Assembly: GCA_946537565.1 (NCBI GenBank)
Contig: CAMNFW010000054.1
Span: 1 to 10,977 of the forward strand
Source: an uncultured Ruminococcus sp.
GTDB lineage: Bacteria > Bacillota > Clostridia > Oscillospirales > Ruminococcaceae
Length of the DNA stretch: 10,977 nt
Reading direction: 5' to 3'
Below the pieces are notes generated by a model. The model was not told where the DNA came from. It saw nothing but the letters and a program-made list of their open reading frames with translations, and did not search any database. Both the position numbers and the translations under genes were made by a program. Shown one piece after another: positions 221 to 7,472 of the stretch (position 1 is its first letter; each line of letters starts with the position of its first letter).

Positions 221-260
221 AAAAAACCGCTGACATGATCATATGATATGCCAGCGGTTT
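221..260 (-). terminator. Rho-independent terminator of the ABC transporter-nadE operon
   Basis: The arms AAACCGCTG (224-232) and CAGCGGTTT (252-260) form a perfect 9-bp stem around a 19-nt loop. Read on the minus strand the hairpin is followed at once by six T (A run at 221-226 on the plus strand) and then more T-rich sequence. It begins 7 bp beyond the stop codon of the NADAR-NadE gene, which is the position expected for its terminator. Confidence 0.88.
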
Positions 261-267
261 AAGATTT

Positions 268-1428
268 TTAAAGCTTATTCTGTTCAAATTTAGGCATAAG
301 CTGGAGTTTGTGGAGATTCAGGGCGTGCATTCTGTCGATCTTAGCTTTAAGCTCTGGCTTATCAGAAAGATCAGTAAGTCCTCTGATATAGCGGTCAAGC
401 TCAGCGTAAGTAAAGCCGAGGTTTTCCTCATCAGTCTTACCGCAGAGACCGTCGGTAGGAACCTTATGAACAAGCTCATACGGAAGACCGAGATGATCGC
501 CGATTTTAAGAACCTCAGTAACGGTCAGATCGGAGAGTGGAGAAACGTCACCGGCGCTGTCACCGAATTTAGTAGAATAGCCGACCCAATCTTCTGAAAG
601 GTTGCAGGTATTGATGACTCTGCCGTTGTTGCAGGCAGCGACAGCATAAAGTGTAGTCATGCGGATTCTTGCGGGGGTATTGACAACAGCCTGATTTGAC
701 AGTTCCATATTTTTACTGATCTCGGCAGATAAAGCTGAGACAGTATCGCCGATATTGATAGTAAAGTATTTAATACCGAGGTGGTTAACGAGTTTAAGGC
801 TGCAATCAATGTCAGCCTGTTTGCCCTGGGGCATAAGAACGCCAATAACACGGTCTTTACCGAGGGCAGCGGTGCATACAGCAGCGGCGACGGAGCTGTC
901 TTTGCCGCCGGAGATACCGATAACGGCTTTAGTATCTGGTGAAGCGGTAGTATCGAAGTAATTTCTGACCCAATCCACAAGCTCATCGGCGACCCATTCA
1001 GTATCGAAAGCACCGGAAAGCTCAGAGCGGATCCTCATGAGTATTCTGCCGAGATAATTTTTACCGATACCGTTTTCAACGCCCCAGAAGGTATCGCCCC
1101 AGTTATTTTCCTCAACGAGCTTTTCGGTGCCGGTGGCGATGAGTTTGTCTGCGAGCGCTGGGTTCTGGGAGAATTTAGCCTTATTGACCACATACATCAT
1201 ATTAAGCTTGACCTGTTCCCAGTCTTGTCTGAGGCTGATGCTGTGCCCCAACTCTTTAGACTGATCAGGATCGAGAGCAGCGAATTGTTTCTGTATTTCA
1301 GTATCAGTAGTTTTCTGAGCCTGGAAGGCGGCTTCAGAGCTGCGGAATGTGATACCGTTTACAGTGACAGGAATTTCGCAGTAGTTATTGAGAAAAAAGA
1401 ATTTCTCGCAGTTGAAATCATTGATCAT
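268..1428 (-). CDS. nadE: NADAR domain-NAD synthetase fusion protein
   Basis: A 386-residue two-domain protein. Residues about 9-137 match the NADAR/YbiA family: SEAAFQAQK (31-39), LRQDW (66-70), FWG (114-116) and GKNYLG (122-127) line up with the conserved positions of E. coli YbiA. Residues about 140-386 are an NH3-dependent NAD synthetase, which amidates nicotinate adenine dinucleotide to NAD+ using ATP: the PP-loop SGGKDSS (173-179), NTPARIRMTTLYAVA (250-264), NLSEDWVGYSTKFGD (276-290) and the C-terminal DEENLGFTYAELD (333-345). There is no glutaminase (nitrilase-type) domain, so ammonia or a separate amidotransferase must supply nitrogen. The ATG has AGGAGG (1437-1442) 8 nt upstream and lies 18 bp after the ABC transporter stop, so the two genes are probably cotranscribed. 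NAD synthesis is a confident call. NADAR activity (ADP-ribose or N-glycosidic bond chemistry in the family) is inferred from intact motifs; its substrate here is unknown. Confidence 0.93.
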   Translation of the reverse strand: MINDFNCEKFFFLNNYCEIPVTVNGITFRSSEAAFQAQKTTDTEIQKQFAALDPDQSKELGHSISLRQDWEQVKLNMMYVVNKAKFSQNPALADKLIATGTEKLVEENNWGDTFWGVENGIGKNYLGRILMRIRSELSGAFDTEWVADELVDWVRNYFDTTASPDTKAVIGISGGKDSSVAAAVCTAALGKDRVIGVLMPQGKQADIDCSLKLVNHLGIKYFTINIGDTVSALSAEISKNMELSNQAVVNTPARIRMTTLYAVAACNNGRVINTCNLSEDWVGYSTKFGDSAGDVSPLSDLTVTEVLKIGDHLGLPYELVHKVPTDGLCGKTDEENLGFTYAELDRYIRGLTDLSDKPELKAKIDRMHALNLHKLQLMPKFEQNKL

Positions 1429-1446
1429 AGAAAAAACCTCCTAAAA

Positions 1447-3306
1447 TTAGCCTTCGCCTTCGGTATATTCAAATTTATTTTCCTCGGCGGAATTATTGGC
1501 TTTACTGAACTGTGTTTCATAGAGCTGAGTATAGACTCCGCCCAGTTTAACGAGGGTATCATGGGAACCCTTTTCGACGATCTCGCCGTCCTTAATGACT
1601 AAGATCTCATCAGCGGCGAGAATAGTAGAAAGCCGGTGAGCGATGAGGATGCTTGTACGGGATTGGATAAGGGGCTCGATAGCGTCCTGGATCTTTTGTT
1701 CTGAGATAGAATCGAGAGCAGAAGTAGCTTCATCGAAGATCATAAGAGCGGGGTCTTTGAGGAGAATTCTTGCGATAGAGATACGCTGTTTTTCGCCGCC
1801 TGAAAGTTTAAGGCCACGATTGCCGACGAGGGTATCGAGACCGCTTTCCTGTTTTTCGATGAACTCAAAGATATTAGCCTGTTTGCAGGCATTGATCAGT
1901 TCAGTCTCAGTGGCATCGGGTTTAGCGTAGAGCAGATTTTCACGGATAGAGCCGTTGAAGAGATAAGTTTCCTGGCTGACAATACCGATATTCTCACGGA
2001 GAAAGGCGAGGTCGAGCTTACGCACATCCACACCGTCAAAGAGGACCTCACCATCCTTGACATCATAAAGTCTGGGAATAAGATTAATGAGAGTACTTTT
2101 ACCTGAGCCGGAGGGGCCGACAATAGCGATGCACTTGCCTTTTTCGAGGGAGAAGCTGATATTTTTGAGGATTTGCCTTTCCGGGTCATAATGGAAGCAG
2201 ACGTTATTGAACTGAACCTCACCGCTGGCACTATCCGGAGTAATGGCATCGGGTGGGCTGTCGATCTCAACGGGCATATCGTAGTATTCAAAGATCCTTG
2301 TAAACATAGCCATAGAGCGGATCCAGTCCACCTGGATATTCAGCAGCTGATTGACCGGGCCGTACATTTTACCGAGAAGAGCGACGAGAACAGTTATCTC
2401 GCCGACGGTAACAGAATCGTCATACTTCATCATAATGATACCGCCCACAAGGTAGATAAGCATAGGACCGATATTGGTGAAAGAGCTGAGAACCATTCTG
2501 AACCAGCGGCCAGCCATACTTTCCTTGATGTTAAGGTTTATCATGCGCTTGTTGACAGAAACGTATTTATCGTACTCTTTTTCCTCCATGCCGAAGAGTT
2601 TAACAAGGAGCTGACCGCTGACGGAAAGGGTTTCATTGAGGATACCATTAATTTCGTCATTGCAGGCCTGAGAATCTTTTGTGATCTTCCAGCGGTTTTT
2701 ACCAGCGGTACGGGTGGGGATAACGAAGAGTGGAATGATAGCGATGCCGACGATAGCGAGGATCCAGTTTTCTCTGAACATGACGATCATAGCCACAACG
2801 AGGGTGATGACATTGGAGATAATATTGGAAAGGGTGGTGGTAATGATTTGTTGAACGCCGGAGATATCGCTGGTCATACGGGTAATAATGTCGCCTTGAT
2901 TATTAGTAGTAAAGAAGCGCTGTGACATTTTCTGAAGGTGTTTGTACATGGTGTTGCGCATATCATAGGTAATATGCTGAGCTATCCAGGTATTGAGATA
3001 GCTTTCGAGGATACCGATGAGATTAGCTCCGACAGTCACGCTGAAGGAAATGAGGATAAACTTAATAAGAGCCTTCATATTCCTGGCGATAAGACCATCA
3101 TCAATAATTTTGCCGGTAATGACAGAGGGCAGCAGAGTCATAATAGCAGAGAAGAGAATAGCTGTCAGTACAAGGGCGAACTGTTTCCAGTAGGGCTTAA
3201 GGTAAGAGAAGATTCTTTTCATCAGCTCTTTAGTGACTTTAGGCTTATTCATTTTTTCCTCATCTGTGAGATACCCCGGACCGAGTCTTCCACCTGGGGG
3301 CGGCAT
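1447..3306 (-). CDS. ABC exporter half-transporter (ABCB/MsbA-like, permease plus ATPase)
   Basis: A 619-residue half-transporter with a fused membrane domain (hydrophobic stretches near 43-60, 82-101, 161-177, 181-197, 278-293 and 301-312) and an ATPase domain. The ATPase motifs are complete: Walker A GPSGSGKST (397-405), Q-loop in VSQET (443-447), signature LSGGEKQR (501-508), Walker B LMIFDEATSALD (521-532) with the catalytic Glu, and H-loop His557. One intact site per chain and no partner gene nearby suggest a homodimer. The substrate cannot be told; the family exports lipids, drugs or peptides. The frame stays open to 3372, but the start at 3306 is chosen because AAAAGGAG (3314-3321) lies 7 nt upstream. 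The short Pro/Gly-rich N terminus (MPPPGGRLGPGYLTDEEK) also resembles that of other clostridial exporters. First gene of the operon with NADAR-NadE. Confidence 0.93.
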   Translation of the reverse strand: MPPPGGRLGPGYLTDEEKMNKPKVTKELMKRIFSYLKPYWKQFALVLTAILFSAIMTLLPSVITGKIIDDGLIARNMKALIKFILISFSVTVGANLIGILESYLNTWIAQHITYDMRNTMYKHLQKMSQRFFTTNNQGDIITRMTSDISGVQQIITTTLSNIISNVITLVVAMIVMFRENWILAIVGIAIIPLFVIPTRTAGKNRWKITKDSQACNDEINGILNETLSVSGQLLVKLFGMEEKEYDKYVSVNKRMINLNIKESMAGRWFRMVLSSFTNIGPMLIYLVGGIIMMKYDDSVTVGEITVLVALLGKMYGPVNQLLNIQVDWIRSMAMFTRIFEYYDMPVEIDSPPDAITPDSASGEVQFNNVCFHYDPERQILKNISFSLEKGKCIAIVGPSGSGKSTLINLIPRLYDVKDGEVLFDGVDVRKLDLAFLRENIGIVSQETYLFNGSIRENLLYAKPDATETELINACKQANIFEFIEKQESGLDTLVGNRGLKLSGGEKQRISIARILLKDPALMIFDEATSALDSISEQKIQDAIEPLIQSRTSILIAHRLSTILAADEILVIKDGEIVEKGSHDTLVKLGGVYTQLYETQFSKANNSAEENKFEYTEGEG

Positions 3307-4764: not shown

Positions 4765-6702
4765 ATGGGTTTAACACTTACTGAAAAAATTCTTAAGGCT
4801 CATCTCGTAGACGGTGAGTACATCAAGGGTCAGGAGATCGGTATTCGTATTGATCAGACTCTTACTCAGGACGCTACAGGCACAATGGCATATCTTGAAT
4901 TCGAGGCGATCGGAGTTCCAAGGGTAAAGACAGAGCGGTCTGTTGCTTATATTGACCATAACACACTTCAGAGCGGTTTTGAGAATGCAGATGACCACCG
5001 GTTTATAGGCAGTGTTGCGAAGAAGCACGGCATATATTTTTCACGTCCCGGAAACGGAATCTGTCATCAGGTACACCTTGAAAGATTTGGCATCCCCGGC
5101 AAGACGCTTATCGGTTCTGACAGCCACACACCGACTGGCGGCGGAATAGGAATGATAGCGATAGGAGCAGGCGGACTTGATGTAGCAGTAGCAATGGGCG
5201 GCGGCGCATATTACATAACCTGTCCGAAGGTAGTAAAGGTAAATCTCACAGGAAAGCTGCGTCCCTGGGTAGCAGCGAAGGACGTAATACTTGAAGTTCT
5301 GAGAAGAATGTCTGTAAAGGGCGGCGTAGGCAAGGTAATAGAGTATGTAGGAGAAGGAGTAAAGACTCTTTCAGTACCTGAGCGAGCAACGATTACAAAC
5401 ATGGGTGCAGAGCTTGGAGCAACGACATCAATATTCCCGTCAGATGAAGTGACAAGGCAGTTCCTTAAGGCACAGAAGAGAGAAGAAGTATGGACACCGC
5501 TGTCAGCAGATGAAGATGCAGAATATGACGAAGAGCTGAACATAGATCTCAGCGAGCTTGTACCTCTTGCAGCTTGTCCTCATTCACCTGATAACGTTAA
5601 GAGTGTTGAAGAGATCGGCAGACTTAAGATAGATCAGGTATGTATAGGTTCATGTACAAACTCATCACTCCTTGATATGCTCAAGGTGGCACACATACTC
5701 AAAGGAAAGACAGTAAATCCGGATGTATCGCTTGCAATAGCACCGGGATCGAAGCAGGTGCTGAATATGCTGGCACAGAACGGAGCGCTTTCAATACTCA
5801 TAGATGCCGGCGCAAGAATACTGGAAAGTGCGTGCGGACCGTGTATAGGCATGGGTCAGTCACCTAATTCAAAGGGTATTTCACTGCGAACCTTTAACAG
5901 AAACTTTGAGGGACGTTCCGGAACAAAGGACGGACAGATATATCTTGTATCACCTGAAATGGCAGCAGTATCTGCACTTACGGGATATCTTACAGATCCG
6001 AGAGAGCTTGGAGAGATGCCGGAGTTCAAGCTTCCGGAGGAATTTGTTATCAACGACAATATGATAGTACCTCCTGCACCAGTTGAAGAAATGGACAGTG
6101 TAGAGATACTCCGTGGACCAAACATCAAGCCTTATCCTGAGACAGCGCCTCTTATGGAGACTATTGACGCACCTGTATCACTTAAGGTAGGCGATAATAT
6201 AACCACAGACCATATCATGCCAGCCGGAGCGAAAATACTTCCTCTTCGTTCAAATATCCCGAAGATCTCGCAGTATTGTTTTGCAGTCTGTGACGAGAGC
6301 TTTCCTGAGAGAGCGAAGAGAATTGGCAAGAGCATAATCGTAGGCGGTTCAAACTATGGACAGGGTTCTTCCCGTGAGCACGCAGCACTTGCACCGCTTT
6401 ATCTAGGAGTAAAGGCAGTGCTTGTAAAATCCTTTGCCCGTATACACAGAGCCAACCTGATAAATGCAGGAATACTTCCGCTTACCTTTGTGAACGAAGC
6501 TGACTATGATAAGATCAACGAAGGCGATGATCTTGTACTGGCAGATGTAAGAAAGGCAGTAGAGAACGGAGAGACCGAGCTTACTGTTCTGGACAAGACC
6601 AATGGCAGCGAGATACCTGTACTCTGCGAGCTTTCCGGACGCACAAAGGACATAATGCTTGCAGGCGGACTTCTTGACTATACAAGAGAATCAATGAAAT
6701 AA
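4765..6702 (+). CDS. acn: Aconitate hydratase
   Basis: Isomerises citrate to isocitrate through cis-aconitate with a [4Fe-4S] cluster; cytoplasmic. The 645 residues fit the shorter aconitase form common in Firmicutes. Cluster ligands are Cys297 in IGSCTNSS and Cys357/Cys360 in ACGPC. Active-site stretches are QDATG (35-39), SDSH (118-121), TDHIMPAG (481-488), YGQGSSREHAA (531-541) with Ser535/Arg537, and KSFARIH (555-561) with Arg559. The frame stays open to a TTG at 4747, but the ATG at 4765 is preferred because AAAGGA (4750-4755) lies 9 nt upstream; the ATG at 4756 directly abuts that site. It is the first gene of the operon, under a promoter overlapped by a Rex-type operator. No citrate synthase gene is in the window. 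Confidence 0.97.
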   Translation: MGLTLTEKILKAHLVDGEYIKGQEIGIRIDQTLTQDATGTMAYLEFEAIGVPRVKTERSVAYIDHNTLQSGFENADDHRFIGSVAKKHGIYFSRPGNGICHQVHLERFGIPGKTLIGSDSHTPTGGGIGMIAIGAGGLDVAVAMGGGAYYITCPKVVKVNLTGKLRPWVAAKDVILEVLRRMSVKGGVGKVIEYVGEGVKTLSVPERATITNMGAELGATTSIFPSDEVTRQFLKAQKREEVWTPLSADEDAEYDEELNIDLSELVPLAACPHSPDNVKSVEEIGRLKIDQVCIGSCTNSSLLDMLKVAHILKGKTVNPDVSLAIAPGSKQVLNMLAQNGALSILIDAGARILESACGPCIGMGQSPNSKGISLRTFNRNFEGRSGTKDGQIYLVSPEMAAVSALTGYLTDPRELGEMPEFKLPEEFVINDNMIVPPAPVEEMDSVEILRGPNIKPYPETAPLMETIDAPVSLKVGDNITTDHIMPAGAKILPLRSNIPKISQYCFAVCDESFPERAKRIGKSIIVGGSNYGQGSSREHAALAPLYLGVKAVLVKSFARIHRANLINAGILPLTFVNEADYDKINEGDDLVLADVRKAVENGETELTVLDKTNGSEIPVLCELSGRTKDIMLAGGLLDYTRESMK

Positions 6703-7472
6703 TGAACAGTGAGCGAAACGCTGCTGAAAGAAATAAAGGGGCCGGAGTATTATCAGCTTCGGCTCTGAAATATATAGCAATAATTGCGATGACCATAGAC
6801 CATATAGCCTGGCGTTATGTAGAGACGACCTCATCGCTGGGGATAATAATGCACTTTATAGGCAGAACAACAGCGCCGGTGATGTTTTATTTCATTACAG
6901 AGGGATATCACCACACCAGGAGTGTACCGAGATATATGCTGAGAATGGGAATATTTGCAGCAATATCGTATTATCCCTTCAGGGTATTTTATGGAGACTG
7001 TTTTGGAGCTAAAGCGCCGCAGAGCGTAATATTAGAGCTTATGCTGTGTCTTTTTGCAGTGCATATAGTCAATGATAAGAAGCTGAATGACGGATTCAGG
7101 CTGCCAATGATAGTGGTAATAATGTATCTGTCAAAGTACTGCGACTGGGGATATACAGGAGTAGTATTCACACTTGCCTTTGAGCTGGCGAGAGACAGCG
7201 GCAGAAAGATACAGATAGCAGCATACGGAGCAGCGGCGCTGATATATGTACTTCCTACGATAGCCCTGGCATTTGACAGCATGAGTATATTCATGCACAG
7301 ATCGTACCAGTTCGGGGTATTTCTTCCGATAGCACTGCTGGCGATGTATAACGGAAAGCCGGGCAGGGGAGACAGCACATTAAAGAAAAATATTAATAAA
7401 TGGCTGTTTTACATATATTATCCTCTGCATCTTGGAGTGCTTACGCTTATAGGCAGATACCTGCATGATTGA
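6702..7472 (+). CDS. TraX family membrane protein
   Basis: A 256-residue polytopic membrane protein resembling the TraX family. Family-like stretches are KYIAIIAMTIDHIAW (23-37), HFIGRTTAPVMFYFITEGY (51-69) followed by HTRSVPRYMLR, CDWGYTGV (147-154) and NKWLFYIYYPLHL (232-244). Hydrophobic segments lie near 22-37, 46-66, 82-92, 107-122, 134-143, 150-160, 170-190, 203-215 and 233-250. TraX of the F plasmid N-acetylates pilin, and the fold is related to membrane acyltransferases. Chromosomal copies in Firmicutes have no established role, and no conjugation gene is nearby. The aconitase stop and this start overlap as TAATG, and no good Shine-Dalgarno is seen, so translation probably depends on reinitiation after aconitase. 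Acyl transfer to an envelope component is a guess. Confidence 0.85.
   Translation: MNSERNAAERNKGAGVLSASALKYIAIIAMTIDHIAWRYVETTSSLGIIMHFIGRTTAPVMFYFITEGYHHTRSVPRYMLRMGIFAAISYYPFRVFYGDCFGAKAPQSVILELMLCLFAVHIVNDKKLNDGFRLPMIVVIMYLSKYCDWGYTGVVFTLAFELARDSGRKIQIAAYGAAALIYVLPTIALAFDSMSIFMHRSYQFGVFLPIALLAMYNGKPGRGDSTLKKNINKWLFYIYYPLHLGVLTLIGRYLHD

Follow-up and report, generated by a model that had tools for sequence, protein, structure and literature searches.

The fusion gene and its protein

Why should a NADAR domain, of the family that was reportedly named in a 2012 paper, be joined in a single chain to an NAD synthase? The question is raised by a gene in the window, the whole stretch of 10,977 nucleotides from an uncultured Ruminococcus sp. 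that was analysed here. The gene, its domains and its immediate surroundings are as follows.

268..1428, minus strand: NADAR-NadE fusion gene of 386 aa (open reading frame with ATG start, profile searches, structure prediction)
1006..1428, minus strand: NADAR (YbiA-type) domain, residues 1-141, carrying E32, K39, E106, D112, W115 and N124
268..1005, minus strand: NH3-dependent NAD synthase domain, residues 142-386, with P-loop SGGKDSS, glutaminase domain absent
1437..1442, minus strand: ribosome-binding site AGGAGG ahead of the fusion gene (read in the sequence)
221..260, minus strand: intrinsic terminator-like hairpin and U-run directly 3' of the fusion gene (folding energy)
1447..3306, minus strand: ABC transporter gene (membrane and ATPase parts) directly upstream of the fusion gene with 18 bases between them; start at 3306 set by eye, mechanical reading frame to 3372

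The window protein is a single chain composed of NADAR and a complete ammonia-dependent NAD synthase, as the preliminary description had read from one frame, and Pfam, TIGR00552 and AlphaFold2 agree on this architecture. Pfam NADAR was matched at residues 17-137 (E 2e-26, 93.6 bits against a cut-off of 35.1) and NAD_synthase at residues 148-366 (E 2.7e-53, above cut-off), the nadE model TIGR00552 scored 180.5 bits against a cut-off of 63.65, and the P-loop SGGKDS was located at residues 173-178. AlphaFold2 gave two confident domains (mean pLDDT 92.2, pTM 0.70) with a NADAR fold in the N-terminal half, and the fused NADAR is YbiA-like in both sequence and fold. The hairpin 3' of the gene has a folding energy of -21.4 kcal/mol (z -7.0) and was not reported by a terminator consensus scan. 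The ABC transporter gene is possibly co-transcribed with the fusion gene, and no connection with NAD was seen in it.

NadE also has an N-terminal partner in glutamine-dependent NAD synthetase, but the partner there is an ammonia-supplying glutaminase and here it is NADAR, which places the window protein outside the glutamine-dependent class. The idea of NADAR as a glutaminase-like supplier of ammonia to NadE was dropped, because we know of no NADAR reaction that releases ammonia.

The NADAR fold and the Glu/Lys active-site pair are held in common with the YbiA/NADAR hydrolases and with DarT1-NADAR. E32 and K39 would match the E88/K95 pair of the E. coli C7 NADAR in a register inferred from their spacing and the alignment with 8bau; in vitro the Glu of that pair mattered less than the Lys, E88A having a minor effect and E88Q being inactive (PMC11543638). 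We infer that Glu106 is the YbiA-type third active-site position by alignment, in contrast to the Asp found there in DarT1-linked NADARs. Most bacterial YbiA/NADAR hydrolases are described as stand-alone proteins (PMC11125620), unlike the fused form here. The model of the NADAR anti-phage protein DS32_2 (NF053876) scored 63.1 bits on the window protein, far below its cut-off of 240.

Conservation of the fusion

Both domains were found in 45 clusters, the window's own included, among the best 120 of 8000 scored relatives, and the 44 others are 53-72% identical to the window protein. Since these 44 clusters carry the fusion and it also occurs in named assemblies, e.g. Ruminococcus albus 8, it is not an assembly artefact, and the doubt voiced on this point in the preliminary description falls away.

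Residues were counted in 49 fusion clusters, namely these 45 and 4 more from a search with the NADAR part only, with duplicates kept and P0121 (a truncated fusion of 224 aa) left out. E32 is present in 47/49, K39 and W70 in 49/49, E106 in 44/49 (with Asp in 3 further clusters), D112 in 45/49, and W115, G116 and N124 in 47/49 each. An alignment of 10 fusion NADARs shows E32, K39, W70, W115, G116 and N124 to be invariant. Position 123 varies there between K, E, A, Q, L and M, and Lys123 therefore drops out of the set of residues that had been called conserved, in which the others stay. As a separate observation, Glu106 is altered in 5/49 NADAR-NadE fusions as against 1/132 other NADARs of the fetched loci.

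A neutral or structural fusion, in which the NADAR half has no catalytic role, would agree with the replacement of Glu106 in those five fusions and with P0033 and P0057, which retain the fusion and NadE with a degraded NADAR that has lost E32 and the WG end; the reverse decay was seen in P0131, with NADAR intact and the NadE P-loop lost. This explanation is highly improbable in view of the counts of E32 and K39, the repeated joining of NADAR to two enzymes of one pathway (see below) and the dN/dS values. The NADAR half is under purifying selection: in L010-L011 and L012-L013, the two independent pairs that lie closest together, its dN/dS is 0.24 and 0.13, and that of the NadE half is 0.06 in each. 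More distant pairs are near saturation. L017 and L022 duplicate the contigs L013 and L012, respectively, and some of the viral contigs are likewise present in two copies.

Other NADAR partners and the origin of the fusion

The search of relatives with the NADAR part returned 71 proteins, in which the partners of NADAR were PF01467 (14), Macro (3), SUKH (2), a methyltransferase (1) and a DprA-like domain (1); no Rib domain was listed as a partner among these 71. The three PF01467 partners tested (P0132, P0138 and P0143) look like NadD, scoring 119, 91 and 105 bits with TIGR00482 against a cut-off of 112, which one of the three passes. NadD yields NaAD and NadE consumes it, so NADAR appears to have been joined to both of the enzymes that flank NaAD.

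The NadD-linked form has been met in Clostridia and Synergistales, with NADAR behind a NadD-like domain in 36 frames of the fetched loci (L021-L092, e.g. L040:8362-9432, L025 and L085) and with E32 and K39 in all of them; in L085 NADAR and a NadD-like gene additionally adjoin as separate genes. NAD genes were absent, by the reference set, among the neighbours in L040, L059 and L068, which were listed gene by gene.

With 147 NadE domains in a quick tree, the fused label has to change 10 times or more, 4 of the changes being forced by well-supported branches, and one origin of all NADAR-NadE fusions was rejected (AU p 8e-6, on a quick tree with long branches). The fusion thus appears to have been gained or lost several times, gains and losses not being distinguishable on this quick tree; neither this history nor the NadD-like partners had been part of the preliminary description. 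The closest rows to the window NadE, its own copy aside, are unfused NadEs, those bearing names among the ones listed being from Ruminococcus or Oscillospiraceae, and the window row lies inside no supported set.

Operon context in relatives and viral contigs

In 4/4 other fusion loci of the same genus, the fusion is the last gene of an NrtR-PncA-Adps-Namat-(NADAR-NadE) operon, as it is in L029, and the viral contigs L094, L096 and L118 hold PncA-Adps-Namat-(NADAR-NadE) without NrtR. NADAR and NadE are separate adjacent genes in L018, L095, L127 and L173, of which the last three are viral contigs with the operon lacking NrtR, L127 and L173 adding a Macro gene. A phage scaffold from human faeces carries Adps, Namat, Macro, NadE and PncA, with NADAR absent. 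Shorter forms pair NrtR with the fused NADAR-NadE in R. albus 8, or consist of three unfused genes, NrtR-NADAR-NadE, in L019, L020 and L027. The distinct fused loci read were 7 bacterial, the window included, and 3 viral. Viral status here is the IMG/VR label, on which the phage origin of the contigs mainly depends; 7/8 flanking proteins tested from L094, L096 and L118 match PHROGs, none of them a head, tail or packaging family.

The operon NrtR has NUDIX and NrtR winged-helix domains; against the ADPR-responsive repressor model it reached 106.5 bits, short of the cut-off of 400. An isochorismatase domain is present in the PncA-like amidase, and among solved structures the best match to this amidase is a hypothetical pyrazinamidase/nicotinamidase. 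Phage SPbetaL1 has experimentally tested NARP1 enzymes, and the Prs-like protein shares 37% identity with its Adps along almost the entire chain, with weaker matches to Prs of the PDB (best E 6e-10). The NAMPT-like protein is 41% identical to SPbetaL1 Namat, and its nearest PDB chains are 9w5x/9w5w (E 1e-110), the printed sequence of which matches the SPbetaL1 gene product, then 9ke8 (2e-82), then 7yqo and human-type NAMPT (3e-50 to 1e-44). No result rests on the structure model of the operon Namat, which had a mean pLDDT of 76.7 from 9 sequences.

Across the genus, Namat was found in 28/125 genomes at 30 places, with NadE on the same contig at most 3.7 kb away at 28/30 of them and NADAR within 5 kb at 5/30, fused in 4. 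The Namat-linked NadE is the only strong NadE match in 19 of the 27 genomes that have one.

Three further observations concern these loci. An Adps homologue (59% identity) is encoded in R. albus 8 at a separate place, L276:6465-7280, with no Namat adjacent. A small gene of about 140 aa stands between Adps and Namat at L278:6576-7004 and L273:6008-6430. In viral contig L127, a Sir2-family gene (L127:4341-5081) lies directly upstream of the PncA-Adps-Namat-Macro-NADAR-NadE operon.

The operon bears on the roles that had been suggested for the fusion from the window sequence, namely metabolite repair, ADP-ribose salvage and NAD+ replenishment. The presence of NrtR, the PncA-like amidase, Adps and Namat speaks for salvage of ADP-ribose or NAD+ replenishment. 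Metabolite repair, with NADAR as a riboflavin-pathway N-glycosidase riding on a housekeeping NadE, draws on the YbiA-like character of the fused NADAR, on the riboflavin-intermediate N-glycosidase model TIGR02464, which the window protein narrowly misses (71.7 bits against a cut-off of 73.7) and the L011 copy passes (76 bits), and on RibD, found in 7/11 genomes examined. RibD is below cut-off or absent in the remaining four (the window's and 3 of the 10 others), which all have NADAR and NadE fused or side by side; NADAR is recurrently joined to NadE and to NadD-like domains, with no Rib domain among the 71 proteins; and the context in relatives is NAD salvage. Together these points make this role very unlikely.

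Replacement of Asp215 in Namat

NARP1, the NAD+ reconstitution pathway 1 of phages and bacteria, reportedly defined in a 2024 paper, consists of Adps and Namat. In the operon loci a Prs-like Adps homologue likewise adjoins a Namat-clade transferase, and they would likewise lead from ADPR to NAD+. Of the features by which NARP1 is recognised, the operon loci have Adps and lack both Asp215 and an uninterrupted GSX..TRD. They thus differ from the published system (PMC12774641) in that the nicotinamide-binding Asp is replaced, the selectivity-clamp helix contains an insert, and the genes are joined by PncA and NadE; the transferase product predicted here is NaAD, as opposed to NAD+ there. Asp215 of the NARP1 Namat hydrogen-bonds nicotinamide (PMC12774641), and the human counterpart Asp219 has been called fundamental for NAMPT specificity (PMC7096376).

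Alignment of 97 Namat frames of the fetched loci, from a search seeded with Ala types, left 84 after near-identical ones were dropped, position 215 being Ala in 55 of them, Ser in 4 and Asp in 25. Within 6 kb of the 59 Ala/Ser Namats lie NadE in 55 cases, PncA in 51, either of them in 57, Adps in 52, Macro in 22 and NADAR in 17; within the same distance of the 25 Asp Namats, Adps was found in 22 cases and NadE, PncA, NADAR and Macro in none. All 57 deduplicated Namats with PncA or NadE nearby therefore have Ala or Ser at 215 (57/57; Fisher p 1.5e-17, on a non-random, Ala-seeded sample and for one tree branch, not for many independent events). The association of the Asp replacement with PncA and NadE is one evolutionary event, since the split between Asp and Ala/Ser is a single branch of the Namat tree with a support of 100. 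Six further loci with Namat that were read have Ala in all cases.

An insert breaks up the published clamp signature GSX..TRD in 72/72 Ala/Ser rows, Phe392 is present in 67/68 Ala rows and the TRD of the ADPR-PP clamp likewise in 67/68, Tyr396 has no clear counterpart in the Ala rows, and Arg40 is present in 12/12 Ala rows and 0/3 Ser rows covering that part (duplicates kept in these row counts). Loss of Asp215 need not imply the use of nicotinate.

The window genome

The window genome is a draft of 310 contigs and 90% completeness, in which the fusion is the only strong NAD_synthase match. By score and length, four weaker matches (24-31 bits) resemble related ATPases, for instance GuaA or QueC. 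Neither Namat nor, beyond a weak Prs-like match of 27.5 bits, Adps was found in this 90% complete draft. Another NADAR, which scores higher for the family, is present at a contig start (G000:C166:10-447).

Frames of fusion length with NadE occur in 5/125 genomes of the genus, and NADAR is in the same 5 frames. Whether genomes with the fusion lack a separate nadE, a check suggested in the preliminary description, has a divided answer: they do in the window genome and in R. albus 8, in which the fusion is the sole NAD_synthase match at E 1e-20, whereas each of the four other fusion genomes of the genus also encodes an unfused NadE of about 255 aa. Full-length NADAR also occurs in frames of 360-410 aa away from NadE places, in genus genomes G008, G097, G118, G022, G059, G015, G068, G070, G076, G043 and G105.

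The window fusion is surrounded by housekeeping genes. Elsewhere in the window, a TraX-like membrane protein gene (6702-7472) lies within a gene cluster that encodes aconitase, isocitrate dehydrogenase, a Rex-like protein and a fumarase-type lyase. A window locus shared with relatives was rejected by comparison with 20 NadE regions of the genus (17 without and 3 with Namat), none of which has the window's neighbours except for one ABC match of 29%; a PncA-like gene adjoins NadE in 5 of the 17 regions without Namat.

Proposed pathway and alternatives

The proposal starts from what is observed, namely the fusion and its conserved residues, the operon, and the replacement of the Namat Asp in association with PncA and NadE. 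The fusion is probably, though with ample room for doubt, part of a recycling module in which NAD+ is regenerated from its breakdown products via nicotinate and NaAD. Because a nicotinamidase, an Asp-less Namat and NadE fit one pathway, the genes may be read as a route from nicotinamide through nicotinate and NaAD to NAD+, all substrates and reactions of which are predicted. ADPR would be supplied by NADases and by adduct-clearing hydrolases, which NADAR and Macro are by family: NADAR, for which cleavage of N-linked ADP-ribose adducts is predicted, would detach ADPR from ADP-ribosyl adducts, a task that would fall to a Macro protein in other copies. Adps would then turn ADPR and ATP into ADPR-PP, PncA would turn nicotinamide into nicotinate, Namat with Ala or Ser for the nicotinamide-binding Asp would form NaAD from nicotinate and ADPR-PP, and amidation of NaAD by NadE would give NAD+. 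The regulator NrtR is from a family of ADPR-responsive repressors and may turn the operon on during NAD+ breakdown, and the NADAR-NadE fusion would couple the entry of the pathway to its exit. NADAR is an optional part of this pathway, as it lies near just 17/59 Ala/Ser Namats and near 5/30 Namat places of the genus.

Published NADARs act on guanine-ADPr (PMC11125620, PMC11543638), and the fused NADAR could instead repair ADP-ribosylated nucleic acid in an antitoxin-like or anti-phage role, with NadE refilling the NAD+ used by an ADP-ribosyltransferase and ADPR not being recycled. The match of E32/K39 to the C7 pair agrees with such a role, and so does the window genome, in which no ADPR-recycling enzyme was found. 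DarT, in contrast to the DarT1-NADAR systems, is absent from 6/6 genomes searched, neither an ART domain nor DarT was found among the window's genes, and Adps and Namat in the operon would be left unexplained, and repair of this kind is regarded as conceivable but rather unlikely. Action on guanine-ADPr in itself is possible, because the four E. coli-type NADARs tested all hydrolyse guanine-ADPr in vitro (PMC11125620), and it would be compatible with ADPR recycling.

Counterparts of the proposed recycling pathway come from phages. In phage DyoEdafos, the glycosidase RyDEP has been demonstrated, in a preprint, to produce ADPR for NARP1 (PMC13232231), and an operon glycosidase freeing ADPR for NAD+ synthesis is common to both systems, here by prediction. 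RyDEP has an RyR-type fold and acts on cyclic ADPRs by experiment, in contrast to the predicted hydrolase here, which is NADAR or Macro, with NadE in the same chain in the fusion; NADAR and NadE are not mentioned in the main text of PMC13232231. For phage Adele, a neighbouring ADPR hydrolase was likewise proposed to feed NARP1, with a Macro-domain gene (PMC12846349, the main text of which does not mention NADAR). The phage proteins NrsA and NrsB have been likened to Adps and Namat in a paper that does not mention NADAR or NadE; NrsB was first taken for a nicotinate phosphoribosyltransferase, a reading that its authors then dropped (PMC11559045).

The RyR-domain glycosidase of a NARP1 operon (PMC13232231) is also a precedent for a fusion whose target would be an immune signal of the soluble ADPR type, for example a cyclic ADPR, in phage counter-defence or in bacterial signal clearance, and which would feed NAD+ synthesis. 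Complete operons in viral contigs and the predicted preference of phage NADARs for small ADPR derivatives (PMC9503650) would suit this function; set against the 7 bacterial and 3 viral fused loci read and the housekeeping surroundings of the window copy, it is judged unlikely.

A literature search at the level of titles and the starts of abstracts, the broadest query of which returned mostly off-topic papers, found no description of a NADAR-NadE fusion or of a nicotinate form of NARP1; the papers that defined NARP1 and NADAR could mention the fusion.

Returning to the recycling pathway, we favour, by a modest measure, a deamidated form of NAD+ reconstitution in phages and in rumen and gut bacteria, in which an Asp-less Namat would form NaAD, NadE would complete NAD+, and NADAR or Macro would feed in ADPR, the fusion providing the first and last steps and acting as the window species' own NAD synthase. 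The full scheme does not apply to the window genome, since Namat and Adps were not found in it; only the two ends of the scheme were found there, fused. The fusion of the window's species is likely a lone module, a housekeeping NadE with an attached, predicted adduct hydrolase.

If the proposed pathway is true, NADAR, which is physiologically poorly understood, would gain a metabolic job, that of returning ADP-ribose to the NAD+ pool, and NARP1 would grow from two genes to five or six, running via nicotinate and NaAD.
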